The translations under genes and the position numbers were made by a program. Shown here in pieces: positions 8,878 through 32,880 of a stretch of 64,000 nt of DNA. The notes beneath the pieces were generated by a model. That model worked only from the letters and a program-made list of their open reading frames with translations, had not been told where the DNA came from and searched no databases. The stretch comes from Ectocarpus siliculosus (lineage: Eukaryota > Sar > Phaeophyceae > Ectocarpales > Ectocarpaceae), in the NCBI GenBank assembly GCA_000310025.1, contig FN648481.1, positions 1 through 64,000 of the forward strand, written 5' to 3'. Position 1 is the stretch's first letter; every line of letters starts with the position of its first letter.

Positions 8878-8900
8878 CACAGGTGGACGCTACCCCCCCC
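8878..8900 (+). repeat. Left terminal inverted repeat
   Basis: CACAGGTGGACGCTA followed by eight C; exact inverse of 32856-32878. TA at 8876-8877 is the putative target duplication. Confidence 0.88.
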
Positions 8901-8934
8901 TTGGCCAAGGTGCCATAACGTGAAAAGGTTTGAC

Positions 8935-9470
8935 CTTGTGCAAGGTAACCCCCCCAAAAAAGTGCACATTAGACAAGGCCCGAGAAATCGACCATGTTGG
9001 ACAACGTCCTCCAACCCAACCTTGGGCAAGGTACAGATTTTCCGAGAGGGTTGAGCAGGGTTCGAGGGAAAGGGGTTGCCCAAGGTTCGACAAGAAAATG
9101 GGCCTTGTGCAAGGTAAAAAAGTGCACATTGGACAAGGTCCGAGAAATCGACCATGTTGGACAACGTCCTCCAACCCAACCTTGGGCAGGGTTCAGATTT
9201 TCCGAGAGGGTTGAGCAGGGTTCGAGGGAAAGGGGTTGCCCAAGGTTCGACAAGAAAATGGGCCTTGTGCAAGGTAAAAAAGTGCACATTAGACAAGGTC
9301 CGAGAAATCGACCATGTTGGACAACGTCCTCCAACCCAACCTTGGGCAGGGTTCAGATTTTCCGAGAGGGTTGAGCAGGGTTCGACGGAAAGGGGTTGCC
9401 CAAGATTCGACAAGAAAATGGGCCTCGTGTGAGGTAAAAAAGTGCACATTGCTACAATCCCGAAAAAACG
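8935..9470. repeat. Left subterminal array, 160 bp units
   Basis: The marker AGTGCACATT recurs at 8961, 9121, 9281 and 9441, an exact 160 bp period, giving three full units and a partial one. Each unit holds several CAAGGT/CCTTG boxes and CAAGGTAAAAAAGTGCAC. These would be plausible transposase-binding repeats by analogy with other TIR elements. ORFs that run through all units are repeat artefacts. Confidence 0.9.
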
Positions 9471-11155
9471 AGGACGTTGGACAACGCCCCCCGACCAAAT
9501 ATTGTGTTGGACTCATCTAAGAGTTTGGACTCATGTACTAAAAACAACCCTACATCTCGCACGACACTAAGAGGACCTGATACGAGCACCGCCTCAACTA
9601 CTTGTTTGCTCGTCCGTCGCACGACTACATGAGAGTGCCGACCCAAACCAACTCAACCGGTCAACCAAAAACTCCCAAACAAACCTTCACGCGTTATCAA
9701 CTCCCCACCTACACCACGCACGTTTTGACGACGCTGGCCCATTTTCTGCTTGCTCGTCTATTCCCTGCTTGAGGCGTCCTGCACAACGAAATCAGACCGG
9801 GACGCTTGTTTGCAGTGGGATCACAGCGTTCCAGAATCCGGCCATTATAGGTGGTAGAACCTCCTTGAACGACGGCACCGGGACAAAAAAAAACAACACA
9901 AACAAAAGCTTGTCGCGGTGTGAGAGTTTTCAGACAATGTACTACACTCACAAAACCGTGGTACGTCGGCTACGACGAATCTCACAACCTCCAGGGGGAT
10001 TTCCGCGCCCCAAACCGCGAAACTAGCGCACAAATCACCAAACAACTCTCATAATTCCACACTTCATCACCACAAGCGCAAATCGGCGCACAAAGAAAAA
10101 GGCGACGCGAACGAGCCGCACAGACCGGGTTCTCTAGATTACCATGACTAAAAAAAAAGTACCCACGCACCAGCAAACGCAACCAACCCGTTGAGTAATA
10201 TGCGAAGTAACCCAAAACCCACAGCTGGTCGCAGTCCTTCACAACACGCCTCTGGCTCTGTGGCACGCACGTGACGCGTGTGCAAGAGGCGAGAAACATT
10301 TTCGTAAACAAACACACACGGTTGTCGCAGAAACATCTCACAACGGAAGCAATGCTCCACAGACAATAACCCAAGCACAAAATATGGTGCGTCCGAGTCG
10401 CCACCACGAAAAACAACTACAGGTCCAGTGTCGGCCAACGATTTTCAGCAAATCTTCACAACACAATCAACCTTGTTTGTGGCCGGCAATCTGTTACTTC
10501 AAGAAAATAAAACGTTACCAATAGCAATTCAAAACAAAATGATGGAACAGATACCAATGAATCAGCGCGGACGGTTCCTGCTTAACTACTCCTGGCGTGC
10601 GCAAACGCAAACGAGTTCTAAACCGCAACCAAACTCTGCCAACCGCTAACTTGCGTGACGAAGCAAGATAGCGTCTGCCTGTACAAAGGTTGTCACGCAA
10701 TAAATTCCACAGCCCGCCCCGCGTCCGTCCACGTCAAAGACTCACCACCAGAAGCAGGGAATAACGATGGCAACATTCTACGCCGCATCATTCTCCTCTT
10801 GCTTGTAGGGCCGGAGAAGCAACTTCGCGGTTTTGATGCAGTCGACCTTGGTTGTTTTCGCCTCCTGCTTCATGTTGTAGTTCCACACAGAGACCATCGC
10901 CTCGAACAACCTGTGTGAAGGGGTGGGGTCAACACGATTGAACGGTTGCAGCAGTAGCGTCACCTGGGGCGTGATAGACACGTCAACAACCGGAAGCACG
11001 CGAGAGCTGCGCGTACGTGGAATACAAGCAGAGGGACGTCCGGAAATACAGTCATGCGCATAAATGCCGTTGCGTTCACACCGCATACCACGAGAAACCC
11101 GGGGCATACCTGTGCCTGCGATAGGCTGCGTGTTGAGATTGGTTTTCTGGGGCAA
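9471..11155 (-). other. Possible decayed or intron-split coding region, minus strand
   Basis: Several consecutive minus-strand frames have ordinary protein composition rather than low complexity: about 11110-10778 (ending in LLLRPYKQEENDAA), 10438-10148, 10045-9900 (around PLEVVRFVVADVPRF) and 9890-9520. Together they could be exons of one gene of the TIR element, for example its transposase, but I recognise no domain and cannot join them with confident splice sites. Confidence 0.25.
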
Positions 11156-11185
11156 CGACAGTTATTCATCCCCCCCCTCCCCCTC

Positions 11186-11378
11186 GTGTTTGCCATCGGG
11201 GTTGGGTTTTCGTCGCTTGGCAACGACGTTGTAAAACAAGCCGCCGCCCCCGGTGTTTGCCATCGGGGTTTGGGTTTTCGTCGCTTGGCAACGACGTTGT
11301 AAAACAAGCCGCCCCCCCCGGTGTTTGCCATCGGGGTTTGGGTTTTCGTCGCTTGGCAACGACGTTGTAAAACAAGCC
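11186..11378. repeat. Minisatellite, three units of 67-68 bp
   Basis: Units start GTGTTTGCCATCGGGG at 11186, 11253 and 11321 and contain TCGCTTGGCAACGACGTTG. They are separated by C-rich spacers of slightly different length. Confidence 0.9.
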
Positions 11379-11750
11379 AATTCACTTCGTGAACTCGGCA
11401 ACCAGGTTACCGTTTTTTTTTTTTACCTCGGTTTTTTTTTTTTGGCGGTAACCATAATGGTGGTCGAGTAGATCATGTTGTGCGGGGTCGAGAAACCTCA
11501 CTCCGCGCAACGGGGGATGATCGCACCTCGTTGTGTTAAAATGGTCAAGCTTCCTCGAGGCAGTTACACAGCGCTTACAACTGTCTCTGGAAGTGAAAGC
11601 ACCAGAAAATAAATTAAGTCATACGTAGCTGTCATCCGTACGCAAGGAAGTAAGCACAAGATGCCGAACACCCTTAGCAGGATGCAGCTCACCCTTCATG
11701 CGACTCGCCAAATACCTCACGGCGCTTCGCGCTTGGTGATGTGAGAGCCT

Positions 11751-11845
11751 GGTCCGGTGAGAACCCGGCGTGCTCCGTCCCGGCTTTGTAGGGATGCGAG
11801 GTCAATGGTCAAACGACTACGGCATGCACGACTATGAGTACACCC
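11751..11845 (+). repeat. Dispersed short repeat, copy 1
   Basis: It shares GGTCCGGTGAGAACCCGG, CGGCTTTGTAGGGATGC and a terminal GAGTACACCCCC with 20911-21010 and 29302-29402. Its right part also matches 50222-50290 on the other strand. The C-run at the end and high conservation suggest a MITE- or SINE-like family. Confidence 0.7.
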
Positions 11846-14396
11846 CCCCCCCCCTTCCCCTCCCCCTCCCCGGCCGGACCGCCGCCCCCGACGGGCGCGC
11901 TTTCCAACATAAAAAAAAAATCCCCCCCCCCCCGCACAGGATCCCGGTGTAGATTGGACCTGCTGCTATCTCCTCTACGTTCCGAACACGATCAAATAAA
12001 ACACACACGCAACAACGACCGCTGTACGACGCAGAGGAGGAAAGTGGACCTCGAAAGAGAACAGTAGCATGTACAACAAATAGAGAAGAAAGGAAGAGGA
12101 GAGGCAATCAAACGAATAGACAGACGCACTTAAACTCTACTTTCAAGAAAAAAACAGGTAAACGAGAAGAAAATTCGACCAGAGCCCAGTCGTGTGCGAC
12201 GGATCTATTTCTTAGTGAACCACGTCATACCCAATCCGTTTGCACCCGAAAGGTTGATATCGCTACGCTTACTTACGAAATGAGAGATACGCGTACGCCT
12301 GTCATCGGCTGTGCCTTTGCAAAAGCAACGGAACAGCATTGAGGGACGACGCGTTGGACGGTTGCGCCATTTGTCAGAGAGGTTTTTCTGACTTCAAGAT
12401 TTCTTAGGAGACGAGACGAACAACACACCGCCTGTTCAACATCCAACTTTTTCTTCCCCTCCGAAGCGGTAGAAATATCCGGAGAAGCGTTGTTGCGTGC
12501 ACAGGCTCGAACGTTTTCGGTTGGGGTCTACAAGGCATTTTACTTTGACTTTGGAAACAACAAGCCACATCACAAAAACAATAACAAAAGAAAACATTAT
12601 TATGAACACGAAAAACCAGCAACAAAACACGGCAAACGACCTGCACCTGCACAAGACCACTTCGGCGTTGAGGTCTACGAGTACTCAACACTCACTTCTT
12701 GTTGAATCGCTGATCACCCTTTCTTCCGCCGCCCGCTGCGGGGTTTGTACGCTCGCTGATCCAGGCTCTAGCGCGGCCGAGGGCGTTGACCCCACCGCAG
12801 GCGACTCCGGTAAGGATCCTTAGCCGTCCATCGCCACATCGTTGTGCTCATCGCGCTAGCTCCTGAGAGCCGCCCACATGTCATCGATGACTGAGGTGCC
12901 CACGGGAACGAGCACCTGGTTCACAGTAACAAGTAGTAGGTGTCGGGTCGGGATGTGGCTTAAGAGGTTTCGCACGTTCAAGGTAGGGTTCCGCGGCCGC
13001 TGCTAGGTACGTACCCACACACCACCCGCTGTAGCACAACGCCAACAAACACGCAAGAGAGAAAGAGGGAGTGGGAAAGGGGGGGGGGGGGGCATCGGCG
13101 AACTTCTACGCGAACGAGTGTCTATGTGTCTATTGCTGAAAACACACAACGATCGGAGACCACCGATCATGTAAACAAACAATATAATCGCTCCATTTTC
13201 CTTCCGCGACAAAAAAAAGCTTTTGTTATCTACTTTACAGTATCCCCAGAGTCAAGACATGAAAGAAGGTATGTGGTTCACACCCCATCTGCACTTATTG
13301 TATCCCTTCTTCACCGCAACACCGGGGACATAGGGACCGAAGCCGAGGGCCCACACATTAGGCCTTGCAAACTCGTTCAGTTGTGGCATCATCATCTAGC
13401 CACGGAGGTGCCCACGTCATCGTTAGAACGTGCACGCACGGGCGGGAGGCCTCCAGACATGACGAAAAACAATCACGGCCGGTGACCAACGCAAGGCAAC
13501 TACATGGCGAACAAAATATAACAGCAGCGACGATCATGTGGCACATGGACAGCATCAGCAAAAAGCCCATCCTTCCATCAAGCAACCCCAAAGTTTTCGC
13601 TCTTTAGGAATCCTGTGCACGACGCTGGACCGAGCTTGTTCACATGCACAGCACCAACGAGCGTGTTAGCGCAATGTTCTGTACAACACGTTTCTTGCCT
13701 TTGGTCTCGAGGGTAGTAGCGGTCGCGGACAGCGACCTTGCCCTTCGTCTTGATAAACGCAGAATGCTTGTCCAGCGTGTACGACCGAACACCTGCCCAG
13801 CAAGATCTCCCCTTGCCTTGCAAGCTGTGCACCCCCACCTCGATCTGCCCAGTCAACACGTGAACGCAAAGCACGGCATTGATTCCATCATAACTACTCT
13901 GCAGGATATTGCTGAGCGCCTACCATACACGAGGTTTGAGGCGGCTTCCGCCGCCACGCTGAAGAAAGCGATTCCAAGATACTTCTATACATGTTGAAAT
14001 CGCGCCACATCCATGATTTGATCGTGGTTTTTTTACGGGGGAATAGTGAAGGTGAAGTTTGTGTAACGTGTACCTTCCCGACGTTCGTGGTTGGCACTGG
14101 GAATTGACCCAGATCCATTCCATTTTGCGCCGTCGCACTTCACCGATGCGCACGAGGCGGCAGAAAGTTCTCGCGTGGAATAAGACAGACAGGCGCAGAA
14201 GAACACAATATGGGCGCGTCGACTGGCAGGGACAAGACAGTCTATCAAAACTAATTGACTCAGAAGAAGGCGGGCTGTCGCTTGGCTTTTTACCGATGAT
14301 GCGCCAACTAAGGCGACGAAGAAAAACAAAGAAAAGGAAGCCTTGAATTTGGTTGAACTGAAGCCGAAATGGTTGACAGCCGCAATATTATGTGGC

Positions 14397-14450
<54 letters not shown>

Positions 14451-16034
14451 CGAGGGGGAAGGGTGATGCAAGGGATGGAGAGACCGTGGTGATCTACACT
14501 CTACCACTGGCAGCAAACCGGAAGCAAGAAGAGATGGACACGGAGCCGGGCGTGGACACACACAACGCACAGAGTGGACATCTGCACGAGGTGAAACTTT
14601 GAGAGGTGTGCTGCAGCACAGCACCATAGCGGTATACATGTATCAGTATCAGTGTTGCTGCGTAGCGGCGAGTGCGTGTTGTTGTGTGTATCTCTTGTGG
14701 CTGTATCAAATACCTCTGTACCTCTGTTCATCAAGCCAATACACACACACACACAAAAAAACAGGACTATGCACTGCTGAAAGTCCAGCGGATCAGACTA
14801 CAGCGTGTCAGACTCGGCTGCTCCACGTTCCATTCTAGTAAATAAAAACGCTCTCCCCACACGCTGAGACGAGCATGCCAACACATGTACTACTGAGGCC
14901 GCACAACAGAATCTGCTACTGCCGAGATTTCCACAGCTACGACTATTGAACATCGTTGTTACTGTGCTGTTTTCTTCGCTCGGGAGTCTGGTATTGCTGT
15001 GTATGTGCATGCCACGGTCGAGTCAACCACAGCTATTAATAGCTGCAATTCGAGCCACCATGAGACGCCACCTGCTCTACGTAGCTTTGGTTAATTTCTT
15101 GCGGGCAAATAAATGCCTGGGCCTCATTCCAGCTTGAATCATGAAAGCAAGTCTGGCATACATGGTGTGGTGGTTGTCTCTTCATCGTTGAGGTACAAGC
15201 GTGCTGTCTTCTTTCTTGCGCGCACAGCGGTTTTACCGGCACGTCCGTTCGTGTTCACATTATACGAGGCATTCCAAAGGCAAGTGCGCGAGAGACTGCA
15301 TGCGGGAAAGCACGTGATGAGGACGCGTGTGCCATCCTGGCTATCACCCCCCATATTCCCCGATTTTTTTACCCCTCTATTCCGTGTACACGGAGGCGTC
15401 TGGAACGGTTGAAGACAACAACAGCAACAACAACCACAACACCATGGGTTCTTGCTTCAAAAGGCCTTCATCGCACGGGCGATGTATCACTCCACAAAAT
15501 TCTGTAAGTGCTCTGAGTCGCTTGAGTACACGGTTTACGTAAGATTTCAGACCCCCTACACGCAATGCGTACCTCGCGTGACCACATGTGAACTCGTCGA
15601 GAGTCATCACCGGGTGTGGTATCTTATGCAACAGGCAACCTACGGTCCAATATGTTGAGGCAAGACGCAACTGGTCCAAAGATGCACAAGAAAAGGCTTT
15701 ACCCCAATTCACAGATACTCACCGTACGCCCTTGGTCGCTACATGTAGTCACGTACTGCTAAGTCACCCGCCGCCAAACCATGTCTCTGGGCCCAGGTTA
15801 GAAGAACCGTTCTGCGAAGTGCAGAGCGCAGAGGCACGGAGGGACAAAATGGGGAAATGAAATAGCATGATCTAGCACGCAAGCCACCACAAGTACGGTA
15901 ATAATGCAGAGGAAAGGTTTCGGTGTTACTCACCATTCTGAGGAGCAGCGGGTTTGACACAGCACCCATACGTAGGGCAAAAATTATGTTGTACCGGAAG
16001 AATAAAAAATATATATCTATGTTTTAGAGGGGCA
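11846..16034. other. TIR-element interior without recognised genes
   Basis: Contains a (GA)23 microsatellite (14401-14446), a G-rich run near 13080, and minus-strand frames of ordinary composition at 13874-13578 (for example DRYYPRDQRQETC) and 15712-15419 (for example LASTYWTVGCLLHK). These may be exons of element genes. No family could be named, and neighbouring frames are broken by stops. Confidence 0.3.
14401..14446. repeat. (GA)23 microsatellite
   Basis: Uninterrupted GA dinucleotides; uninformative for coding. Confidence 0.95.
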
Positions 16035-16348
16035 TGCCGGGTAGACACCAGTCCTCCCACCAATCACATGTCGACTATGTAGGACATTATGTAGTACAGA
16101 GACAGCTGATTGGGCGATGGCCACGCCGCCGAGCGGGAATCCTCCGAAAGCCGTAGCACAGCAGCAGCAGCACATGACACACGTAGACAACACGCGAGAC
16201 AACCAGTACAGCAGCACACGAGACTGCTGTGGACCAAGGGCAGCCAAAGGCACACATAATAGGAGGTCGGGTTCGACTGTTAGAGCCGGTTGGCTGCTGT
16301 GTCGGCAGCACCACAAGCGAAGGAGGCGACACAGGTCAAATCTGCTGC

Positions 16349-16381
<33 letters not shown>

Positions 16382-16798
16382 ACGTCGATCTTTTGAGCTT
16401 ACTACACAGAAGTGGTGCATCCCTAACCCAATGAGACGTACAAACTGCTGCAGGCCAAGGCGGCCAAAGGAACACATCATACATACGATGCATCGAGAGC
16501 GATTTGTGAAGCCCGTTGCCTGCTGCTAGAGCGTATAAGCGAGTGAAGCAAGTGCACACAAGTCAATCAATCTGCGGCTATCTTCGCCGGGCGGATCTAT
16601 CTTCTCTCCATCCACAACAGACCCGCGCAAAAACAGAGAGACAATGAGATGTACACACGCTGCAGGCCAAGGCGACCAAATACATACACACATAGAGGGC
16701 GTCGGGGGCGATTTTAAGGGCCCGTTGCCGCTGCTACGAGCGTAAGTGGTGCACATCATCCACACAGCGACAGCAGCAGCAGCAGCAGCAGCAGCAGC

Positions 16799-16840
<42 letters not shown>

Positions 16841-17060
16841 TGATGATGGTTCATGAAAGCTTCGTCCACACCACACAACACTTTCTTCACTCTTCCCCGC
16901 GCTGCTAAACAGCAGCAGTCTGGGTATACGGCTGACTGGTGGTGTTGGGTGAGGTGTGAGCGTGTGCAGTAGCAGTGGTGTGGCCTCTCTGTGAGGCTCC
17001 ATCCATATCTATTGCGCCTGCGTCTCTTTCTCCGCCCGTTCTTTTTCGCGCTTCGCGCGA
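16035..17060. repeat. CAG-rich internal module, paralogue 1
   Basis: Homologous along its length to 19670-20560. It opens with CTCCCACCAATCACA and CAGAGACAG, then repeats a degenerate unit of about 200 bp (CTGC-rGGCCAAGG-GCCAAA ... GCCCGTTGCC ... GCAAGTGCACA). It ends with GCAGCTGATGATG and a GGTGAGGTGTGAG-GTG segment. Long (CAG/CTG)n tracts are scattered through it. It is present again in the second copy at about 24721-25470. Confidence 0.75.
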
Positions 17061-19320
17061 AATAATTTAATTTAGTTTTTGTTGTACCCCTGTGTATGGG
17101 ATCTGAGCCGCGGGTTTGCGGGTAAGATCGAGACCGGAATGGCGATTTTTTACTGTCGGAGCCTCCCATCGGTAGCGGGACACATGTTTTTTGTACTAGA
17201 AATAGACTGGTACTTTGGCTGCCGTCGGTGACGGGACACGTTTGAAAAGGGGCACAGGAGGGGCACACATCACCTGCGATATTGGCAACACACAGCAGAC
17301 ACAGCATACCCAGCACACAGCACATAGCACACAGAGAAGGCGGAGGAGTGTGTGGGACACGGAAGCAACACGCCCCCGCTGCTGCTGCTGCTTCTGCTTT
17401 GCCACAAGCACACAGACAGCTACTGCTGCTGCTGTAGCTGTAGGAAAGAAGCGGCTTGATGATGCATGATGGTCAGACGCAAACAAACAATGTATGCAAA
17501 CGGTTGGCGCACTGACGCAGTGGCACCATAGTACACTCTAGCAACTGCTGCTGTTCTTCTGTGTATGGTGGTCTGGCGTGGTGCTGAACAACTGGGAGAG
17601 ACAGAGATCAGGCAGATCAGAGATGGTATCTGATGCTCGATTTTTGCCGTTGAGAATTCATTCATGTGGAAGGCAGCAGCAGCAGCAGAGTTTAACAGGC
17701 GGGATATTTCACTGCACACATCATCACAAGCGCGGATCTCGAGGCGGCACCACCTCTCTCGACATGTTGGTTGCTCGAATCACCGCTGTGGTGCTACCGC
17801 TGGCCTCCTGTTGAGAACGATGGCGTGCTTTTGTGTTGAAACGCTACAGCAGTGATAGATAGACTAGATAGATAGGCACATGAAGATGTTTTTTGACAAG
17901 TGCTGCTTGTGCGCTGCAAAACAGCACCGAGAGTGGACAAAAGGGGACAGTCATTCAGAGCGCAGACACATCCAGGTCATTTCCTGCTTATTCTGCATCA
18001 TGTGCGGCAACCCACTTGTGAATCGACGTCGTGGTCGTCGAGAGAAAGGCCTAGACTTTCTTCCTATTTTTTTTTCTTTTTTTTCCAGGCGCCGCCAGTA
18101 AAAAATCGCCACCGGAATCAATCATTAATACCATGTACGAGTAACAACGTCTAGCTGTTGGTTAACCGACTTTTTCATGTGGCTTGGGAAACAGAAAGTG
18201 GACTTCATGGTCCCCAGAGTAGTCAAGGGCCCTCCTCGCTCACTACTGCTGTCGTGCTACAAGGCCTGCTGTGGACATTTTGTCCGGTTCTGATCCTTGG
18301 CCATTGAAGCACGCCGCCGCAGGTTCAAGATCGAGATCGATTGTGCGTTTTACAACTCACGTTCGGCGTACATCCGTCCCTGGCAAAGACGACACGACCT
18401 TGCTTCTGCTGGTGTGTCAGGATTCGCCACGATGACGCCGCCGGGGGAGTCTCGCCCTGATTCCACCCGTCTCGACTCCCTTCTACGCCTGCTCTTGCCT
18501 CTACTGCTCCGGTCCTGGTGCACCCCTTTGGCCTCTTGTCTGTGGCCGCTTGTCTGTGGTCGTTTCTCAAACACAAAAGCGAGAAAGGGGCGTTTGCCCG
18601 GCGATTAGGTACCGCACCGATCTCCCGTGGTCTCCTGTTTGGTCCGACCCGCGAAGTGGTTATCTAGGTGTAGCATGAGTCTCCCTCTCCCTGCTGGCAG
18701 ATGCCTGGACCCAGTTGATCGCCATTGCAAATGAGGTTGCACTCACAGCAGTAGCCCAATTCTTTTTTATCCCACTGTGAAATTGCCCGCCTTTTTTTTT
18801 TAGCCCGCCATAGGGTTCAGAACCAGAACCTATTTTTCACCACAACGCTTCATCCCTCATCCCGCGCCTTAGCATGCTAGTGATGGACTCGACCCCCGGA
18901 GCATACAGCCACATGCAACATCAGCACGGCAGAAGCACAACCCTTGCAGACGAGGTTCAAGCAAAGGGCGGGCCACCGTTATGAGTGCAGCACCGGTGGG
19001 AAACCGCTCGAAACATCAGGCGCCACTCGGCGAGAACGAGAAGTCGGGGTTCCGCCGCGTCTTTCATCGGGGGACAGCTGCGATAGCGACAGTGATGGTA
19101 AGCACTCTAAAGCCACATATACTTGTGGGCATTCAATCTCAGCGTAGGTAGACAACCAGTCCATTGTTCCGCTTCGTTGGTTGAAGACCTGGTAGGAGTT
19201 GACTTGATACCCACACCATATCGCATATCCAACGAAACAAACTCGAACTAGGTATAATAGGAGCTACAGGCAGGTACTGATATACTGTAGACAGACACGT
19301 AACACCACGTGCACGACCCC
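17061..19320. other. Interior of the large repeat without recognised genes
   Basis: CAG-rich and low-complexity DNA (17200-17480), T/C tracts and scattered short ORFs on both strands. An ORF at 18944-19147 ends near a GTAAGC splice-like site. No domain is recognised, and the second copy is equivalent. Confidence 0.3.
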
Positions 19321-19379
19321 GATAGCTCCGATGCTCTAGTGGTTACCGTCGTAATCCTGCTACCAGCAGGTTCAACGCT
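19321..19379 (+). other. tRNA-like sequence (pol III A and B box), copy A
   Basis: TGCTCTAGTGGTTA (from 19332) resembles an A box and GGTTCAACGC (19369-19378) a B box, with tRNA-like spacing. Acceptor-stem pairing is not evident, so this is a tRNA-derived or SINE-like relic rather than a functional tRNA. A CT microsatellite follows. Confidence 0.45.
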
Positions 19380-19669
19380 CTCTCTCTCTCTCCCCCCCCC
19401 ACCCCCCCTCCCTCTCCGGAGTGGAAGAATTTTCTTTTGGCCGCGGAAAACGTAGTACTTCCAGTAAAGAGTTGTTGAACACTTGTCCCGGTCTCCGTTC
19501 GTGCACCGTCTCCGTTTGTGGACCAATTGCACGTCCAATAAATACTTCGAGCTCACGTTCGACGAGGGAAAACAGACGGCAAAATCCTTCTCGCGATGCA
19601 AAATAAGGCAAGAACCGCAGGAGGAAAAAACGTTGAATGAATCGGCAGCAGACCCATCGTAGAAACTTC

Positions 19670-20560
19670 CAACAGCAGATCGTCTCCCACCAATCACACA
19701 TCGGCTTTGTAAGACATTTTGTAAGACAGAGACAGATGATTAGGCGAATGGCACGACGCTCGGGGAGAATCCCCCAAATCCTCTTAAAAAACAGACGCAG
19801 CACAGCAGCAGCACACGTAGACAGCATACGAGACAACCAGCACAGCAGCATACAAGACTGCTGTAGGCCAAGGGCGGCCAAAGGCACAAATCATAGGGAG
19901 CGTTGGGTGTGACTCTTAGAGCTCGTTGCCTGCTGTTGGCAGCACAAGCGACGAGGCAAGTCAACCTGCGGTCTGTCTTCATCACCTGCCGATCTTTGGA
20001 GCTTCCCACACAGAGGCACCCCCACGACACAGACAACGAGATGTGCACACTGCTGTAGGCCAAGGGCAGCCAAAGGCACACACATGGCAGGCATCGGAAA
20101 CGATTGTATGGCCCGAGACACAAGTCCAGTCTATCTGTGGTCTGTCTTCGTCTGCAGGCTAATTTTTGCTTGCACAACAGACGCACCCCCGACACAGAGA
20201 CAAGTGAGACGTACACTGCAGGCGGAGGCCAAATACACGCATCGTAGGAGGCGTCGGGAGCGATTTTTAGAGCCCGTTGCTCGCTGTACCAGCGTAAGCG
20301 AGGAAAGCAAGTGCACAGCCACGCACAGCAGCAGCAGCTGCTGCTGCTGCAGCTACGTGTAGTAGCTGATGATGAGAGCTCTCCCATACCAGCGCTCTCA
20401 TTCATCCCCGGGCTGTTAGACAGCAGACATCTGACTGACTGGGGGGCTCGGGTGAGGTGTGAGGGTGTCCAGTCGTGGCCTCTGTGATGGCGTAGGCTCC
20501 ATCCACATCTATCTGCGCTTGCTTTGATGTCTCTCTCCGCCACTTCTTTTCGCGCTAGGC
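19670..20560. repeat. CAG-rich internal module, paralogue 2
   Basis: Diverged duplicate of 16035-17060 within the same element, with the same order of landmarks: CTCCCACCAATCACA, three degenerate units of about 200 bp with GGCCAAGGGC-GCCAAAGGCACA, GCAGCTGATGATG-GCTCT, GGTGAGGTGTGAGG. It also appears at about 28063-28953 in the second copy. Confidence 0.75.
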
Positions 20561-20910
20561 ACACATAGAACGAAGAAGCCGAGGCGATGGACTTGGTACA
20601 TCAGTCCGATGCTGATACCCGTGCAGAAACAATTCACACGGTACAGGGGGGGGGCTTAGCCGTCCGGAGTGGCGCTTGCAATATACTGAGGTAGAGGTAC
20701 ACACCGCGCGACGCGCCTACGCATTCTACCCCTTTTGTTTAGCTCCCTTCGTTTTGCTCTCGGTATGTGTTACAACATGGAAACGTTAGCACATGGCCAG
20801 TATGAGTCAATGTTCACGGTGCCCCTATCTCCGCCGTGGTGGTTCGACGGGCTCCGCTGAGTACAAGTCTTGCCCGTAAAGGTACTCCCCCCCTTTCCTT
20901 TATCTGAGCC

Positions 20911-21867: not shown

Positions 21868-23814
21868 GTTAAGGGCGGTGATATATATTTAAATATATAT
21901 ATTTTCCGAGGTGGTCTCGTCTCTGTGTGTCCGTTTATTGACATGGTAGATGATAATTTTGTTGCTGCCGCTGCTGTTGTTGCTGCTCCTGCTGCTTCTG
22001 GTGGTGATGGTATGTTCAGGAGCGGAGCGTCCAGCCTGGATTTCAGGAGCTCGGCAGTACACGGACCGGAGCAGGATGCCGCCGCCACCGACGCCGCCAG
22101 TGCTGCTGATAGCGGCAGCGCCGGCGAAGGAAACGAGGGCGATAGCGGCGTAGGGCAGGTGAGACTGGTTGGGCAGAATGTATCTGAAAGTTTAGTTGTC
22201 TGGCGGCGGGGCACGGAGAAGCATATTTGGCCACACACCGTCAAGACATGCTGTCCATCTTTGAGCCAGACCCTGAGTGAGCAGACTCTGAATTAGCGAG
22301 CGCTTGCGATTCGACACCAGCACCGGATGGGTGCTACTCCATCGATGATTATCTCGGCTCTCTCATCGTGCAAAAACCTCCACCCTTGATCGTCATCATG
22401 CCCTCCCCTCCCCACATCAATCAGTCCAAGTCGAAGGGGCGTCGCAACGGCGGCGGGGGAGGTTCTCTTGGGTGCTGCTATCGTCAACGGAGGGGGGAGG
22501 CGGTGCGAGTTCCCCTGTTTTTTCTGAGAGGCACCAACTACGGTGAGGAAAATTATTTGCAGAGCGTGTTGTGGAATTCATTTTCTTTTGTATGCGTGCA
22601 CTATCCCTCTGTGTTTCTTCCTCTGTTCTTGCGACCTTATCCGTCCCGCAGACGTAGCTGCTTGTGTAAACACCTAGAGTCCAGCCAGCATTGCATGCAC
22701 GCTGCGCCGAGAGGTATCGTTTGGTTCATGTTCACCTGTTTTATGTGCTGTGTGATCCCCGCTGAGTCATCCTGAAAAATATCCCGAACAGTGTACCGGT
22801 TGGATGAGGCAGATACACACAAAAACACAGACACGACAACGCGTGTCCTCACGATTGTTAACCCTGCTTCAAGATTCCGCGGCGTCTTTTGATTGGGCAG
22901 CCGGCCGGTTAGCGCGGTCGATGCTTGCTATGGAAACCCGCACACACGTGTACCACAGCATGTTGGAGTGTTTGTCGGCAACTCTTGCTGTTTGTATTTC
23001 TGGTGTGTTTCGTTCTTCGGTCGTGCGTGTCTTCCAGCTGGGTCGACGCCGTGTTTTATGAATGAATTACTGATGCACGACGCCGTTCGTGACGCTCGTG
23101 CCCCCTGTCCCTGCCTGTCCTTCTCGCACACACCCCTCAACGACATGGGTACCTCCCCTACTCCAAGTACGTGTCGCCGCCGATCCTTCTCGAGCACCCC
23201 GACCTTCATCTATGCCACTCGGAACCGCCGTCGTGCCCCCCCCGCCCCTGCCAGGAGCGAGGGCTGGCGCTCCATCCCCGACGCCGTTCCCCCGGGGCAC
23301 CTGGAAGGAGAAGCGGCACGTTCACCTTCGGCAACGGTGATAGGTTGGCGGCGGCTATCGACGAAGGCTCGCGGGGAGAGGCTAGTGGCAGGACAAGTTG
23401 GTCGCCTGGAGCTGGATCGCAAATCAGTCTGGTTGGGGGAGGGAGCGGATCAACCTGGATCGTTGCACCTCCGGTGCGTCCGTCGTCCGCTCTCTTTCTG
23501 GGAGAGAGTTCGCCCAGCGAAAAGATGCCGCCAGCGCTCGATCTGCTGCGATCTCTTGTTTGTTCCGAGCCGCGAGTTTTGTCTATCAGTATGTATGCTG
23601 TAGAACTGGCGGGAGCCTCGCTCTCCGTGCTGGCGGACAGCTGCCTGTGTTTCGTGGTACAAGATACTCGCACTGTTCTGGACACACAGTCCTTTGTTGA
23701 CGGGTTTTGGTTTCCCAGGAACTACTGATGTAGTACGTCGTGGAAGGTGCTAGAGATCACTTACCCGCCTTGCGAGGCACGGCAAAAATGCATGATTCGA
23801 GGTGGCCATTCGGC

Positions 23815-24460
23815 AATTTTTCACCCTGGGCAACGTCCTTCTACGGTCCAGAAATCGCAGACCTTGGACAAAGTTCGCCTTTGAGGTGACGTTGGGGCCA
23901 TTTTACCTTGCCCAGGGTGGGTGCAAGGTTACAGTTCCGCTTGACCTTACACAAGCTTCGACCCTGTGTGACCCTGGGGCGTTGTCCACCTTGCGCAAAG
24001 GTCCTTGGAAGGTCGAGAAGTCATCGACCTTAGAAACCGTTCGACCTATTGTGATCTTGGTGCTTTTTCCACGTTGTCCAAGGTCCTTTCAAGGTCAAGA
24101 AATCGTAGACCTTGGGCATGGCTCGCCTTCGTGGTGACCTTGGTTTTTTTTTACCTTGCGCAAGGTACTTCCAAGGCCCAGAAATGGCAGGCCTTAGACA
24201 TGGTTCGGCTGTGAGGTGACCTTGGGGGCAGTTGTACCTTGCCCAGTGTGCGTGCAAGGTTGCGGTTCCGCCGGACCTTGCCCAACGTTTGACCTTGCAC
24301 TACCTTGGGGCCTTACTTACTTTGCGCAAGGTGCTTCCAAGGCCCAGACATAGTAGACCTTGGACATGGGCACCCTTGTGGTGACCTTGGGGGCATTTTT
24401 ACCTTGCCCAGGGTGCGTGCAAGGTCTGTCCAAGGTACCGGTGGTGGGTCAACCTTGTGT
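23815..24460. repeat. Right subterminal array, copy A
   Basis: Degenerate units of about 165 bp built from ACCTTG/CAAGGT boxes, inverted relative to the left array at 8935-9470. The same array recurs at 32205-32860. Confidence 0.85.
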
Positions 24461-24462
24461 AA

Positions 24463-24485
24463 GGGGGGAGTAGCGTCCACCTGTG
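24463..24485 (-). repeat. Right TIR of copy A
   Basis: Six G, then AG and TAGCGTCCACCTGTG: the element's right end with one G-to-A change. It is flanked outside by TA, then by GCGGTCCGCG, which is not Helitron sequence. Confidence 0.85.
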
Positions 24486-24487
24486 TA

Positions 24488-24620
24488 GCGGTCCGCGATT
24501 TTCCAAACGATCCTTCTATCATCGAGTTCGGTGAGCTACAAGCTAGATTTTTGAAGCTGCTGTGCGGTCCATTTTTGAAACGCTTCAAGCACCTTTGCCT
24601 AAAGGCTAGACATGCATATA
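24488..24620 (+). other. Unrelated flank of copy A before the gap
   Basis: 133 bp after the copy A terminus, open in the plus strand (RDFPNDPSIIEFGEL ...). It has no counterpart at copy B or in the Helitron, so it probably belongs to another insertion site of the same element. Confidence 0.6.
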
Positions 24621-24720
24621 NNNNNNNNNNNNNNNNNNNNNNNNNNNNNNNNNNNNNNNNNNNNNNNNNNNNNNNNNNNNNNNNNNNNNNNNNNNNNNNN
24701 NNNNNNNNNNNNNNNNNNNN
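24621..24720. other. Assembly gap (100 N)
   Basis: A run of exactly 100 unknown bases marking a scaffold join of unknown true size. Confidence 0.99.
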
Positions 24721-24812
24721 TAATAGGAGGTCGGGTTCGACTGTTAGAGCCGGTTGGCTGCTGTGTCGGCAGCACCACAAGCGAAGGAGGCGACACAGGT
24801 CAAATCTGCTGC

Positions 24813-24845
<33 letters not shown>

Positions 24846-27710
24846 AGGTCGATCTTTTGAGCTTACTACACAGAAGTGGTGCATCCCTAACCCAATGAGA
24901 CGTACAAACTGCTGCAGGCCAAGGCGGCCAAAGGAACACATCATACATACGATGCATCGAGAGCGATTTGTGAAGCCCGTTGCCTGCTGCTAGAGCGTAT
25001 AAGCGAGTGAAGCAAGTGCACACAAGTCAATCAATCTGCGGCTATCTTCGCCGGGCGGATCTATCTTCTCTCCATCCACAACAGACCCGCGCAAAACAGA
25101 GAGACAATGAGATGTACACACGCTGCAGGCCAAGGCGACCAAATACATACACACATAGAGGGCGTCGGGGGCGATTTTAAGGGCCCGTTGCCGCTGCTAC
25201 GAGCGGAAGTGGTGCACATCATCCACACAGCGACAGCAGCAGCAGAGCAGCAGCAGCAGCTGATGATGATGATTCATGAAAGCTTCGTCCACACCACACA
25301 ACACTTTCACTCTTCCCCGCGCTGCTAAACAGCAGCAGTCTGCGTACACGGCTGACTGGTGGTGTTGGGTGAGGTGTGAGCGTGTGCAGTAGCAGTCGTG
25401 TGGCCTCTCTGTGAGGCTCCATCCATATCTATTGCGCCTGCGTCTCTTTCTCCGCCCGTTCTTTTTCGCGCTTCGCGCGAAATAATTTAATTATTTTTTG
25501 TTGTACCCCTATGTATGGGATCTGAGCCGCGGGTTTGCGGGTAAGATCGAGACCGGAATGGCGATTTTTTACTGTCGGAGCCTCCCGTCGGTAGCGGGAC
25601 ACATGTTTTTTGTACTAGAAATAGACTGGTACTTTGGCTGCCGTCGGTGACGGGACACGTTTGAAAAGGGGCACAGGAGGGGCACACATCACCTGCGATC
25701 TTGGCAACACACAGCAGACACAGCATACCCAGCACACAGCACATAGCACACAGAGAAGGCGGAGGAGTGTGTGGGACACGAAAGCAACACGGCCTCGCTG
25801 CTGCTGCTGCTCCTGCTTTGCCGCAAGCACACAGACAGCTACTGCTGCTGCTGTAGCTGTAGGAAAGAAGCGGCTTGATGATGCATGATGGCCAGACGCA
25901 AACAAACAATGTATGCAAACGGTTGGCGCACTGACGCAGTGGCACCATAGTACACTCTAGCAACTGCTGCTGTTCTTCTGTGTATGGTGGTCTGGCGTGG
26001 TGCCGAACAACTGGGTGAGACAGAGATCAGGCAGATCAGAGATGGTATCTGATGCTCGATTTTTACCGTTGAGAATTCATTCATGTGGACAGCAGCAGCA
26101 GCAGCAGAGTTTAAACAGGCGGGATATTTCACTGCACACATCATCACAAGCGCGGATCTCAAGGCGGCACCACCTCTCTCGACATGTTGGTTGCTCGAAT
26201 CACCGCTGTGGTGCTACCGCTCGCCTCCTGTTGAGAACGATGTCGTGCTTTGTGTTGAAACGCTACAGCAGTGATAGATAGACTAGATAGATAGGCACAT
26301 GAAGATGATTTTTTTGACAAGTGCTGCTTGTGCGCTGCAAAACAGCACCGAGAGTGGACAAAAGGGGACAGTCATTCAGAGCGCAGACACATCCAGGTCA
26401 TTTCCTGCTTATTCTGCATCATGTGCGGCAACCCACTTGTGAATCGACGTCGTGGTCGTCGAGAGAAAGGCCTAGACTTTCTTCCTATTTTTTTTCTTTT
26501 TTTTCCAGGCGCCGCCAGTAAAAAATCGCCACCGGAATCAATCATTAATACCATGTACGAGTAACAACGTTTTAGTCTAGCTGTTGGTTAACCGACTTTT
26601 CAGGTGACTTGGGAAACAGAAAGTGGACTTCATGGCCCCCAGAGTAGTAAAGGGCCCTCCTCGCTCACTACTGCTATCGTGCTACAAGGCCTGTGGACAT
26701 TTTGTCCGGTTCTGATCCTTGGCCATTGAAGCACGCCGCCGCAGGTTCAAGATCGAGATCGATTGTGCGTTTTACAACTCACGTTCGGCGTACATCCGTC
26801 CCTGGCAAAGACGACACGACCTTGCTTCTGCTGGTGTGTCAGGATTCGCCACGATGACGCCGCCGGGGGAGTCTCGCCCTGATTCCACCCGCCTCGACTC
26901 CCTTCTACGCCCGCTCTTGCCTCTACTGCTCCGGTCCTGCTGCACCCCTCTGGCCTCTTGTCTGTGGCCGCTTGTCTGTGGTCGTTTCTCAAACACAAAA
27001 GCGAGAAAAGGGCGTTTGCCCGGCGAAGAGGTACCGCACCGATCTCCCGTGGTCTCCTGTTTGGTCCGACCCGCGAAGTGGTTATCTAGGTGTAGTCTCC
27101 CTCTCCCTGCTGGCAGATGCCTGGACCCGGTTGTTCGCCATTGCAAATGAGGTTGCACTCTCACTCTCAGCAGTAGCCCTCCTATTTTTTTTAGCCCGCC
27201 ATAGGGTTCAGAACCAGAACCTATTTTTCACCACAACGCTTCATCCCTCATCCCGCGCCTTAGCATGCTAGTGATGGACTCGACCCCCGGAGCATACAGC
27301 CACATGCAACATCAGCACGGCAGAAGCACAACCCTTGCAGACGAGGTTCAAGCAAAGGGCGGGCCACCGTTATGAGTGCAGCACCGGTGGGAGACCGCTC
27401 GAAACATCAGGCGCCACTCGGCGAGAACGAGAAGTCGGGGTTCCGCCGCGTCTTTCATCGGGGGACAGCTGCGGGAGCGACAGTGATGGTAAGCACTCTA
27501 AAGCCACATATACTTGTGGGCATTCAATCTCAGCGTAGGTAGACAACCAGTCCATTGTTCCGCTTCGTTGGTTACAGACCTGGTAGGAGTTGACTTGATA
27601 CCCACACCATATCGCATATCCAACGAAACAAACTCGAACTAGGTAGGAGCTACAGGCAGGTACTGATATACTGCTGTAGACAGACACGTAACACCACGTG
27701 CACGACCCCG

Positions 27711-27768
27711 GTAGCTCCGATGCTCTAGTGGTTACCGTCGTAATCCTGCTACCAGCAGGTTCAACGCT
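27711..27768 (+). other. tRNA-like sequence, copy B
   Basis: Same as 19321-19379 with one substitution; followed by a longer CT microsatellite. Confidence 0.45.
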
Positions 27769-29301
27769 CTCTCTCTCTCTCTCTCTCTCTCCCCCCCCCT
27801 CTCTCTCTCTGGAGTGGAAGAATTTTCATTTGGCCGCGGAAAACGTAGTACTTCGAGTAGAAAGTTGTTGAACACTCGTCCCGGTCTCCGTTCGTGCACC
27901 GTCTCCGTTTGTGGACCAATTGCACTTCCAATAAATACTTCGAGCTCACGTTCGACGAGGGAAAACAGACGGCAAAATCCTTCTCGCGATGAAAAATAAG
28001 GCAAGAACCGCAGGAGGAAAAAACGTTGAATGAATCGGCAGCAGACCCATCGTAGAAACTTCCAACAGCAGATCGTCTCCCACCAATCACACATCGGCTT
28101 TGTAAGACATTTTGTAAGACAGAGACAGATGATTAGGCGAATGGCACGACGCTCGGGGAGAATCCCCCAAACCCTCTTAAAAAACAGACGCAGCACAGCA
28201 GCAGCACACGTAGACAGCATACGAGACAACCAGCACAGCAGCATACAAGACTGCGGTAGGCCAAGGGCGGCCAAAGGCACAAATCATATGGAGCGTTGGG
28301 TGTGACTCTTAGAGCTCGTTGCCTGCTGTTGGCAGCACAAGCGACGAGGCAAGTCAACCTGCGGTCTGTCTTTATCACCTGCCGATCTTTGGAGCTTCCC
28401 ACACAGAGGCACCCCCACGACACAGACAACGAGATGTGCACACTGCTGTAGGCCAAGGGCAGCCAAAGGCACACACATGGCAGGCATCGGAAACGATTGT
28501 ATGGCCCGAGACACAAGTCCAGTCTATCTGTGGTATGTCTTCGTCTGCAGGCTAATCTTTGCTTGCACAACAGACGCACCCCCAACACAGAGACAAGTGA
28601 GACGTACACTGCAGGCGGAGGCCAAATACACGCGTCGTAGGAGGCGTCGGGAGCGATTTTTAGAGCCCGTTGCTCGCTGTACCAGCGTAAGCGAGGAAAG
28701 CAAGTGCACAGCCACGCACAGCAGCAGCAGCTGCTGCTGCTGCAGCTACGTGTAGTAGCTGATGATGAGAGCTCTCCCATACCAGCGCTCTCATTCATCC
28801 CCGGGCTGCTAGACAGCAGACATCTGACTGACTGGGGGGGTCGGGTGAGGTGTGAGGGTGTCCAGTCGTGGCCTCTGTGATGGCGTAGGCTCCATCCACA
28901 TCTATCTGCGCTTGCTTTGATGTCTCTCTCCGCCACTTCTTTTCGCGCTAGGCACACATAGAACGAAGAAGCCGAGACGATGGACTTGGTACATCAGTCC
29001 GATGCTGATACCCGTGCAGAAAAATTCACACGGTACAGGGGGTGGCCTTAGCCGTCCGGAGTGGCGCTTGCAATATACTGAGGTAGAGGTACACACCGCG
29101 CGACGCGCCTACGCATTCTACCCCTTTTGTTTAGCTCCCTTCGTTTTGCTCTCGGTATGTGTTACAATATGGAAACGTTAGCACATGGCCAGTATGAGTC
29201 AATGTTCACGGTGCCCCTATCTCCACCGTGGTGGTTCGACGGGCTCCGCTGAGTACAAGTCTTGCCCGTAAAGGTACTCCCCCCCTTCCTTTATCTGAGC
29301 C

Positions 29302-29402
29302 AGGTCCGGTGAGAACCCGGCGTGCTCCGCCCCGGCTTTGTAGGGATGCAGGTCAATGATTTAACGACTATAATACGGTATGCACGACTACGAGTACACC
29401 CC
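29302..29402 (+). repeat. Dispersed short repeat, copy 3
   Basis: Counterpart of 20911-21010 in the second large copy. Confidence 0.75.
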
Positions 29403-32204
29403 CCACCCCTCCAAGCAGCGAAAGTCATCCTGGGAAGCCCCAAGCGCGCAAATAATGCAGCCGTCAGGGCAGAACTGGGGATCCAATCGTTACGATCGGG
29501 AAGAGATGCAAGGAAGCTGACATGCAGTACCGCATGTGCGATACGGGAGAGAAGAGGTTGCCGAGAATAGTCTGGGAGGCGACGTGGGCAAATAAAAAGA
29601 GGGGTAGACAACCCACGGAGTGGGTCAAGGTTGTAGAGGACGTATTGAAGGGGTTCGTTATTTTTTTCTCTATGCGTCGTCATGTTTTTTCTTGATTTAA
29701 CCTGACCTCGGCGTATCTGTGGTGTTTGAAGTGTATCTTAGATTCGCCTTGGCACGCTGTACGGCTTCTTTAATACGATGAAAAATTAATTTTCTCGCTT
29801 TTAACGCTATCCACTTTGGCTTACTTCGTGTGATGCTTGTGTCTCATGTACGCAATCCAGGAAACAGACCACTTTTTTTCTTCGCCACCTCCCACCGTTT
29901 GCAGCCATGTTCCGGTGATTACCGAAGGAGCATGCCGCCATGTCGAAGAGGCGGCTGTTTTCCCTCCTGGCGAGCGTCAGGGGCGCCGTAGCATGGCGAG
30001 GGAGGGGGTAGGAGGCTCGGCGGGCCGCGGTGCTGGACGTTAAGAGGTGTGCTTCCCAAGTTGGGGGTCCACTGTGCGTTAGTCAATGGCAAAGGAAGGC
30101 TCGTGATGAGGGGTCTTTGGGAAGGTAGCGGTGGGATGCGATTCCTTCTTGAAGCCCACCGATTTCCAGTGTTGCTCGTTGACTTATCGAGGACCGATCA
30201 GGCGGCGCAGATGACAGCCCCGTTTGACATCTCCGCGCTCGCCGCGCACACGAGGTAGGTTAAGGGCAGTGATATATATTTATATATTTTTTTTTTTTCC
30301 GAGGTGGTCTCGTCTCTGTGTGTCCGTTTATTGACATGGTAGATGATAATTTTGTTGCTGCCGCTGCTGTTGTTGCTGCTCCTGCTGCTTCTGGTGGTGA
30401 TGGTATGTTCAGGAGCGGAGCGTCCAGCCTGGATTTCAGGAGCTCGGCAGTACACGGACCGGAGCAGGATGCCGCCGCCACCGACGCCGCCAGTGCTGCT
30501 GATAGCGGCAGCGCCGGCGAAGGAAACGAGGGCGATAGCGGCGTAGGGCAGGTGAGACTGGTTGGGCAGAATGTATCTGAAAGTTTAGTTGTCTGGCGGC
30601 GGGGCACGGAAAAGCATATTTGGCCACACACCGTCAAGACATGCTGTCCATCTTTGAGCCAGACCCTGAGTGAGCAGACTCTGAATTAGCGAGCGCTTGC
30701 GATTCGACACCAGCACCGGATGCGTGCTACTCCATCGATGATTATCTCGGCTCTCTCATCGTGTAAAAACCTCCACCCTTGATCGTCATCATGCCCTCCC
30801 CTCCCCACATCAATCAGTCCAAGTCGAAGGGGCGTCGCAACGGCGGCGGGGGAGGTTCTCTTGGGTGCTGCTATCGTCAACGGAGGGGGGAGGCGGTGCG
30901 AGTTCCCCTGTTTTTTCTGAGAGGCACCAACTACGGTGAGGAAAAATATTTGCAGAGCGTGTTGTGGAATTCATTTTCTTTTGGTATGCGTGCACTATCC
31001 CTCTGTGTTTCTTCCTCTGTTCTTGCGACCTTATCCGTCCCGCAGACGTAGCTGCTTGTGTAAACACCTAGAGTCCAGCCAGCATTGCATGCACGCTGCG
31101 CCGAGAGGTATCGTTTGGTTCATGTTCACCTGTTTCATGTGCTGTGTGATCCCCGCTGAGGCATCCTGAAAAATATCCCGAACAGTGTACCGGTTGGATG
31201 AGGCAGATACACACAAAAACACAGACACGACAACGCGTGTCCTCACGATTGTTAACCCTGCTTCAAGATTCCGCGGCGTCTTTTGATTGGGCAGCCGGCC
31301 GGTTAGCGCGGTCGATGCTTGCTATGGAAACCCGCACACACGTGTACCACAGCATGTTGGAGTGTTTGTCGGCAACTCTTGCTGTTTGTATTTCTGGTGT
31401 GTTTCGTTCTTCGGTCGTGCGTGTCTTCCAGCTGGGTCGACGCCGTGTTTTATGAATGAATTACTGATGCACGACGCCGTTCGTGACGCTCGTGCCTCCT
31501 GTCCCTGCCTGTCCTTCTCGCACACACCCCTCAACGACATGGGTACCTCCCCTACTCCAAGTACGTGTCGCCGCCGATCCTTCTCGAGCACCCCGACCTT
31601 CATCTATGCCACTCGGAACCGCCGTCGTGCCCCCCCCGCCCCTGCCAGGAGCGAGGGCTGGCGCTCCATCCCCGACGCCGTTCCCCCGGGGCACCTGGAA
31701 GGAGAAGCGGCACGTTCACCTTCGGCAACGGTGATAGGTTGGCGGCGGCTATCGACGAAGGCTCGCGGGGAGAGGCTAGTGGCAGGACAAGTTGGTCGCC
31801 TGGAGCTGGATCGCAAATCGTCTGGTTGGGGGAGGGAGCGGATCAACCTGGATCGTTGCACCTCCGGTGCGTCCGTCGTCCGCTCTCTTTCTGGGAGAGA
31901 GTTCGCCCAGCGAAAAGATGCCGCCAGCGCTCGATCTGCTGCGATCTCTTGTTTGCTCCGAGCCGCGAGTTTTGTCTATCAGTATGTATGCTGTAGAACT
32001 GGCGGGAGCCTCGCTCTCCGTGCTGGCGGACAGCTGCCTGTGTTTCGTGGTACAAGATACTCGCACTGTTCTGGACACACAGTCCTTTGTTGACGGGTTT
32101 TGGTTTCCCAGGAACTACTGATGTAGTACGTCGTGGAAGGTGCTAGAGATCACTTACCCGCCTTGCGAGGCACGGCAAAAATGCATGATTCGAGGTGGCC
32201 GTTC

Positions 32205-32860
32205 GGCAATTTTTCACCCTGGGCAACGTTCTTCTACGGTCCAGAAATCGCGGACCTTGGACAAAGTTCGCCTTTGAGGTGACGTTGGGGCCATTTTACC
32301 TTGCCCAGGGTGGGTGCAAGGTTACAGATCCGCTTGACCTTACACAAGCTTCGACCCTGTGTGACCCTGGGGCGTTGTCCACCTTGCGCAAAGGTCCTTG
32401 GAAGGTCGAGAAGTCATCGACCTTAGAAACCGTTCGACCTATTGTGATCTTGGTGCTTTTTCCACGTTGTCCAAGGTCCTTTCAAGGTCAAGAAATCGTA
32501 GGCCTTGGGCATGGCTCGCCTTCGTGGTGACCTTGGGGCTTTTTTACCTTGCGCAAGGTGCTTCCAAGGCCCAGAAATGGCAGGCCTTAGACATGGTCCG
32601 GCTGTGAGGTGACCTTGGGGGCATTTGTACCTTGCCCAGTGTGCGTGCAAGGTTACGGTTCCGCCGGACCTTGCCCAACGTTTGACCTTGCACTACCTTG
32701 GGGCCTTACTTACTTTGCGCAAGGTGCTTCCAAGGCCCAGACATAGTAGACCTTGGACATGGGCACCCTTGTGGTGACCTTGGGGGCATTTTTACCTTGC
32801 CCAGGGTGCGTGCAAGGTCTGTCCAAGGTACCGGTGGTGGGTCAACCTTGTGTAAGGGGG
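32205..32860. repeat. Right subterminal array, copy B
   Basis: About four units of roughly 165 bp: TTTTACCTTGCCCAG-like marks near 32298, 32628 and 32793, and TTGCGCAAGGTGCTTCCAAG near 32549 and 32715. It is the inverted counterpart of the left 160 bp array. Confidence 0.88.
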
Positions 32861-32878
32861 GGGTAGCGTCCACCTGTG
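32856..32878 (-). repeat. Right terminal inverted repeat
   Basis: Eight G then TAGCGTCCACCTGTG; perfect inverse of 8878-8900. TA (32879-32880) follows, then the Helitron Walker A coding sequence. Confidence 0.88.
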
Positions 32879-32880
32879 TA

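Follow-up and report, generated by a model that had tools for sequence, protein, structure and literature searches.

A giant terminal-inverted-repeat transposon family, probably non-autonomous, interrupts a Helitron helicase gene in Ectocarpus siliculosus

Results

The first 64,000 nucleotides of Ectocarpus siliculosus contig FN648481.1 (hereafter the window, which is the start of contig C82 among the 492 contigs of the 189 Mb assembly searched here) contain a Helitron replication-helicase gene that is interrupted by a giant DNA transposon with terminal inverted repeats (TIRs). The upstream portion of the gene was taken from the open reading frame (ORF) listing at 8257..8877 on the plus strand; it reads ..TYSFMI at its end and its final codon is ATA, at 8875-8877. 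The downstream portion (32881..33883, plus strand) carries a PIF1 helicase domain (PF05970) split over two frames near 33069, with matches at E 1.2e-14 (32881-33069) and, in the other frame, at E 8.6e-28 (32957-33880). The reading frame from 32881 starts with DAPAGTGKT, which we take to be the Walker A motif. Compared alone with Pfam, 8257..8877 gave no match; elsewhere in the genome, at 23 places, its last 178 bases run directly on into the PIF1 part. Since the PIF1 matches fall in two frames, with the switch near 33069, this Helitron copy has apparently been broken independently of the insertion, or else the assembly has an indel at 33040-33110.

The genome was searched with a 337-base query in which both flanks were fused and one TA was dropped, a junction that restores the PIF1 helicase frame. 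This search gave 27 matches, and 23 of them span essentially the whole query (1-337, 6-337 or 6-336). An example of such an empty site is C37:267196-267532, with 337 bases for 337, and some others deviate slightly in length (326 to 346). The remaining four comprise the two C82 halves, one match on C126 (130-239) that crosses the joint and one on C68 (1-78) that stops short of it. As five pairs among the 23 empty sites are about 2.9 kb apart, the sites represent at least 18 separate places. The uninterrupted matches through the joint confirm the insertion into a Helitron; the ORF end, the PF05970 frame and the empty sites all agree with a preliminary description of this DNA, in which the Helitron coding sequence stops at 8877 and restarts at 32881. 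The five pairs, on C15, C9, C30, C11 and C5, each consist of two equally oriented helicase matches, of about 95% and about 90% identity, and the Helitrons there may carry two tandem helicase-like stretches.

The element is bordered by a TA target site duplication, at 8876..8877 on the left and 32879..32880 on the right. Alignment of the two ends revealed a perfect left TIR of 25 bp (CACAGGTGGACGCTACCCCCCCCTT; 8878..8902, plus strand), two bases longer than first described, and the corresponding right TIR at 32854..32878 on the minus strand, an end that also occurs at other genomic places. From 8878 onwards the sequence is identical over 25 bases to the reverse complement of the sequence ending at 32878, and 34 bp align at 91%. 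The termini are CACAGG..CCTGTG, of the CAC..GTG type, with CACAGGTGG-type ends.

Behind each TIR lies a tandem array. The left one (8956..9450, plus strand) is CAAGG-rich and has a 160 bp unit in 3.1 copies with 97% matches in a listing of the Tandem Repeats Finder (TRF) type. The right one (32210..32819, minus strand; CCTTG-rich on the plus strand) consists of 82-83 bp units, for which TRF gave 7.4 copies and 63% matches, and has a higher-order spacing of 165 bp, at which similarity rises to 86%; the unit lengths of 160 and 165 bp given earlier were thus recovered. CAAGG and CCTTG words together number 17 in 623 bp on the left, against a mean of 1.4 (maximum 5) in mononucleotide shuffles (500 per region for both ends), and 27 in 678 bp on the right, against a mean of 1.5 (maximum 6). 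There is no clear enrichment in the middle of the element (10 in 4000 bp against a shuffle mean of 8.2). The arrays had been described as lying in opposite orientation. Enrichment was indeed found at both ends, but the orientation is biased rather than strict, with CAAGG:CCTTG ratios of 10:7 on the left and 10:17 on the right.

The two ends are 24 kb apart in the window, with a scaffold gap of 100 N between them (24621..24720), and 16257-24488 is repeated as 24721-32881 on either side of this gap. The pre-gap contig contains an inner right end at 24485, followed by 135 bp (24486..24620, plus strand, TA included) that match the flank of another copy of the element on C16; window 22307-24620 and C16:1898126-1900439 are 99.9% identical. 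Up to about 16300 this contig differs throughout from the copies on C16 and C120, and from the one on C83 where aligned. From 16378 to 18877 only 4 differences to C83 were counted in 2500 bp (1, 1, 0, 0 and 2 in successive 500 bp bins), and from 18878 to 24620 there are 0-1 differences to C16 per 500 bp bin, except for one bin with 7, in counts that omit positions facing a gap in the C16 alignment. The left and right-hand contigs show 0/121 differences over 16257-16377, and this exact agreement indicates the natural overlap of the two contigs. These sequence comparisons make it very probable that the 24 kb span is an assembly artefact, in which 16378-24620 is pieced together as a mosaic from two other copies. 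At this site the true element would then consist of a left part (8878..16377, plus strand), which along its whole length differs from the copies on C16 and C120, and a right part (24721..32878, plus strand), which ends in the TIR beside the downstream Helitron portion. Between them the assembly places a C83-like stretch (16378-18877), a C16-like stretch (18878-24485), together the plus-strand mosaic 16378..24485, and the C16 flank. Given the overlap, the element measures 7,379 + 8,158 = 15,537 bp, in line with the ~15.5 kb of the preliminary description. The C16 copy has a TA/TA duplication of its own, so the 135 bp flank belongs at C16. Gene conversion, a less likely alternative to the mosaic, would leave the foreign flank beside the gap unexplained.

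Further copies were recovered by genome searches with both ends. The left end (91 bases) was found at 8 places including this window, some of them with decayed termini. A search with the right end (342 bases) yielded 41 alignments. Twelve of them, the window included, lie at or nearly at the terminus, one being the inner assembly copy of the window, and the rest are array repeat units. Matches to the body identify most of these places as the same element, which is about 91-99% identical in the copies on C16, C120, C83, C53, C184 and C183 and about 88-97%, depending on the stretch, in those on C56 and C142 (BLAST rows were dropped below 200 bp for body matches, 60 bp for the self-comparison of the window and 150 bp for the codon-phase alignment below). 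Two facing ends occur at five places (C82, C16, C120, C56 and C114), and three of these copies have matching 2 bp duplications, namely TA at C82 and C16 and CA at C120. The duplication proposed earlier therefore holds as to its length of 2 bp, and TA is not universal. Read in the element's orientation, six single intact ends adjoin TG, TG, CC, GA, AA and TA. On C53 one left and one right end, both next to TG, do not face each other and may belong to one rearranged element. Near C146:40793 the left end of one copy adjoins the interior of another copy, at the equivalent of window 18240 and with its far end outside view, which indicates that the family has apparently inserted into itself. The preliminary description had allowed that no second copy with the same ends might exist; several were found, and the empty sites, the other copies and the target duplications together support its central claim that a giant TIR transposon has split a Helitron gene.

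The terminus itself was also used as a query. With up to 3 mismatches it gave 26 matches against 13 for a reversed control, and on this comparison the 3-mismatch matches are probably mostly chance, although one of them, C16:5131918, is a genuine family end. Of 25 matches to the exact 13 bp terminus, 13 are ends of this family. At C7:947744 a terminus with one mismatch (CACGGGTGGACGCTACCC) is flanked by TA and runs directly into an N gap, which may conceal one more copy. A 6.2 kb derivative at C114:21996-28244 consists of two inverted right halves, with right termini at both ends and no matching target duplication.

Repeats are nested within the element, and some internal segments occur in only part of the copies. 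A widespread, sharply bounded repeat of about 0.9 kb lies at 19683..20556 (plus strand) and has a relative at 16054-17052; a search with a 6 kb query, in which the best 40 of 1026 candidates were scored, gave at least 25 further alignments that stay within this stretch, at 66-81% identity. A ~660 bp repeat segment (11186..11847, plus strand) is present here and in the C56 copy and absent from the copies on C16, C120, C53, C184 and C142; pieces of it occur at other places too. A segment of about 2.15 kb (15957..18102, plus strand) is common to the C82, C16 and C83 copies and absent from those on C120, C56 and C142. It includes the 16054-17052 relative of the 0.9 kb repeat, and its part past 16377 falls within the mosaic and has its counterpart in the right-hand contig from 24721.

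Several of these sequences were considered as genes or as a source of transposase and rejected. The inner pair 16054-17052 and 19684-20556, aligned over 15901-17200 and 19501-20800, showed mismatch fractions of 0.40, 0.34 and 0.37 by phase and gaps that are mostly not multiples of three, and turned out to be copies of the widespread 0.9 kb repeat. The 4.6 kb insert of the C16 copy, scanned in three minus frames of 3.8 kb, contains an open frame of 1245 codons with an RVT_1 domain (E 1.7e-34) and was read as a non-LTR (long terminal repeat) retroelement. The 8.3 kb insert of C120 carries motifs that we take to be those of a Ty1/copia piece. The 2.7 kb insert of C56 has no ORF longer than 183 aa, and the 1.7 kb insert of C53 is an element rich in repeats. 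In this last insert (C53:89815-91529) a unit of about 42 bp is repeated many times in tandem, the ends read ACACCCTGTAC.. and the target CAGGATTCC is duplicated; it appears as a TIR-like element inside the copy. Two diverged right ends (C16:5.13 Mb and C214) adjoin sequence that lacks an element match or contains retroelement domains, and no transposase was seen in the plus frames of L055:1-6650 and the minus frames of L056:500-9001, to which the scans were confined; the C214 end has one further 246 bp match to the element.

Coding content was assessed in two ways. A six-frame Pfam scan of 8878-16300 and 16250-24500 on the left contig, with stops translated as X, gave nothing at E<=1; the right-hand contig 24721-32878 is a near-duplicate outside the scan. 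Genome-wide profile searches with PF02992 and PF18759 gave no matches, but the controls were equally silent, hence these searches are uninformative either way. Codon-phase analysis used the assembly mosaic 8878-24487 as reference and ten aligned sequences, including the right-hand contig of the window and several partial ones, among which about 11% of reference positions are variable. The largest chi-square, 9.8, fell short of the shuffle median of 12.2 and of the 95% point, 15.8 (16.7 in a second run), and 2 windows lay beyond the cut against 3.8 expected. No clear third-position excess was apparent by inspection in the 16 ORFs of at least 150 aa. The simulated power of the analysis was 0.62-0.99 for exons of 600-1200 bp at codon weights of 1:1:3 or 1:1:5 and 0.03-0.27 at 1:1:2. 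With these limits, the absent coding signal is fair evidence against a long, well-conserved gene and not against a small one.

Discussion

The inverted ends common to several copies, the matching duplications in three of the five two-ended copies and the empty sites in 23 of the 27 matches identify the element as a Class II TIR DNA transposon. Members of the CMCT clade mostly have CA..TG ends and duplications of 2-5 bp (PMC12730594). The CACAGG..CCTGTG termini conform to the CA(C)..(G)TG pattern of this clade, the 2 bp duplication falls within its range, and subterminal repeat arrays, as in EnSpm/CACTA elements, are present at both ends. CMCT membership would thus fit the ends and the duplication, and the CMC group suggested earlier is consistent with these features and with the arrays. 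No DDE transposase with the C(2)C and H(3-4)H motifs, the main criterion of the clade, appeared in the six-frame scan of 8878-24500. CACTA/En-Spm elements such as soybean Tgmt* (20.5 kb; PMC2613891) and maize Spm/dSpm share the CAC..GTG ends, the subterminal motifs and the large size, whereas the family described here has CACAG instead of CACTA, a 2 bp instead of a 3 bp duplication and no transposase gene that we could see. Resemblance to ESTA and Plavaka lies in the 2 bp duplication and in the CA..TG-type ends of most CMCT lineages. ESTA duplicates TA, unlike this family, which is not confined to TA; PlavakaA duplicates 2 bp and PlavakaB 2 or 3 bp, but their ends, TGT..ACA and CATCA..TGATG respectively, are both unlike CACAGG (PMC12730594). 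KDZ (Zisupton) elements duplicate 8 bp (PMC12730594), which does not fit the three copies with duplications, where only 2 bp agree.

Taken together, the data probably reflect a giant non-autonomous family of TIR DNA transposons, with a copy of about 15.5 kb inserted here at a TA in a Helitron helicase gene and a CMCT-type transposase acting in trans. Observed directly were the termini, a target duplication of 2 bp, the empty site, more than one copy and internal nested repeats, together with no recognisable transposase or coding constraint. Defective copies are known for maize Spm (dSpm), and their transposase is supplied in trans. By analogy, a transposase made elsewhere would recognise both the CACAGGTGGACG.. 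ends and the subterminal arrays rich in CAAGG, in the way TNPA/TNPD do for Spm/En, excise the element and re-insert it through cuts staggered by 2 bp. Such a transposase would most likely come from an EnSpm/CACTA-like element of the CMCT clade, and the element itself would most likely have lost its own transposase, or never had one, while keeping the cis-acting ends. TNPA is described as binding the subterminal repeats in Spm/En (PMC2613891).

Several observations weigh against this interpretation. Two of the five two-ended copies have no matching duplication, C56 having a decayed left terminus and C114 two right ends. The 3 bp duplication described for EnSpm (PMC12730594, PMC8978399) and the CACTA motif of EnSpm/CACTA proper were not found, 2 bp and CACAG being present instead. 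The other 12 exact matches to the 13 bp terminus (7 for the control pattern) form no facing pairs, and no autonomous partner with these ends was found among them. The codon-phase analysis is weak for short or mildly constrained exons, its simulated power at 300 bp being 0.03-0.61. Finally, two ORFs, of 286 aa and 161 aa, are intact in five of the seven comparable copies each, the other ORFs being so in fewer; inserts relative to the reference were untracked, so these counts are upper bounds.

The two intact frames are relevant to a different explanation, in which the element is autonomous and encodes a highly diverged, intron-rich transposase of an unfamiliar lineage. The 15 kb size would suit such a gene, as would the report of intron-bearing transposon genes in Ectocarpus (PMC12477816). 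Yet changes in the 286 aa ORF are spread over the codon positions as 37, 38 and 41, and those in the 161 aa ORF as 14, 20 and 20; the former lies almost wholly inside the widespread 0.9 kb repeat, and neither a codon-phase signal nor a Pfam match was obtained, which makes autonomy improbable. Slightly easier to accept, but still unlikely, would be a hitherto undescribed lineage, intermediate between EnSpm, ESTA and Plavaka, that is wholly non-coding yet long (12-15 kb) and is moved in trans by a CMCT-like transposase that leaves 2 bp duplications with no strict sequence preference.

The remaining explanations concern the nature of the insertion as a whole. A Tc1/mariner-like element is suggested by the TA/TA flanks here and at the C16 copy, but the CA/CA of the C120 copy departs from the TA expected at every site, only one of the six single-end flanks is TA, and no transposase domain was recovered; the duplications TA, TA and CA argue against this assignment, which we consider highly improbable. 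Equally hard to sustain is a real 24 kb compound element, that is, a tandem or nested pair sharing its outer ends. The layout of the assembly, with its inner right terminus at 24485, is what such a pair would look like, but the pre-gap sequence switches identity from C83 to C16, carries a flank that belongs to C16, where the TA duplication is complete, and stops at the N gap. A large integrated virus or virus-like element comes to mind because giant viral elements have been reported in Ectocarpus (PMC13236599); with a 2 bp duplication, no Pfam domain in six frames and no coding signal detected, we regard it as extremely unlikely.

The non-autonomous family favoured here has close parallels in the same genus. 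Giant KDZ, EnSpm and Sola-1 transposons, generally longer than 10 kb, have been described in Ectocarpus (Dinatale et al. 2025, PMC12477816). Their nested insertions are generally fixed from copy to copy, their transposase genes are often predicted to be pseudogenes, and several of the families are presumed to be entirely non-autonomous (PMC12477816). In the description given there for Ectocarpus sp. 7, the likeness extends to the length, generally above 10 kb, the nested unrelated repeats shared among copies, the families without a transposase gene and the brown-algal host; the segments present in some of our copies and absent from others agree with it as well. A difference is that the non-autonomous giants of Ectocarpus sp. 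7 are said to carry other genes (PMC12477816), whereas no coding signal was detected here. Matched by description only, our family fits this published kind. The earlier suggestion that it may be new is weakened accordingly, because giant EnSpm and KDZ and non-autonomous families are already described (PMC12477816). Among the literature titles and abstract openings listed, no other report of giant TIR transposons in brown algae was noticed.

The transposon biology of this group has been described as underexplored (PMC12477816). The present family would add a giant non-autonomous one that is defined structurally, by its ends, duplication length, empty sites and subterminal arrays, and its termini provide a handle for locating the autonomous partner. 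Giant repeats in this assembly can be mosaics, and elements that seem longer than 20 kb should be checked with long reads.

Other sequences in the window and assembly

EsV-1-7 domains are massively expanded in the assembly, with at least 150 matches (the best 150 of 880 candidates) and none of 14 control genomes positive. The EsV-1-7 family is reported to have multiplied in brown algae and to be known outside them mainly from giant viruses (PMC12477816). Upstream of the helicase portion, near-identical ORF stretches occur at 2771-3439 and 7856-8371 and at 3374-4063 and 4862-5401, which suggests that the 2.7-8.4 kb region holds additional repeats or duplications. Downstream of the element, an ORF at 49135-49695 matches the nucleotidyl transferase domain PF00483 (E 3.4e-6) and is perhaps a host sugar-nucleotide pyrophosphorylase gene.

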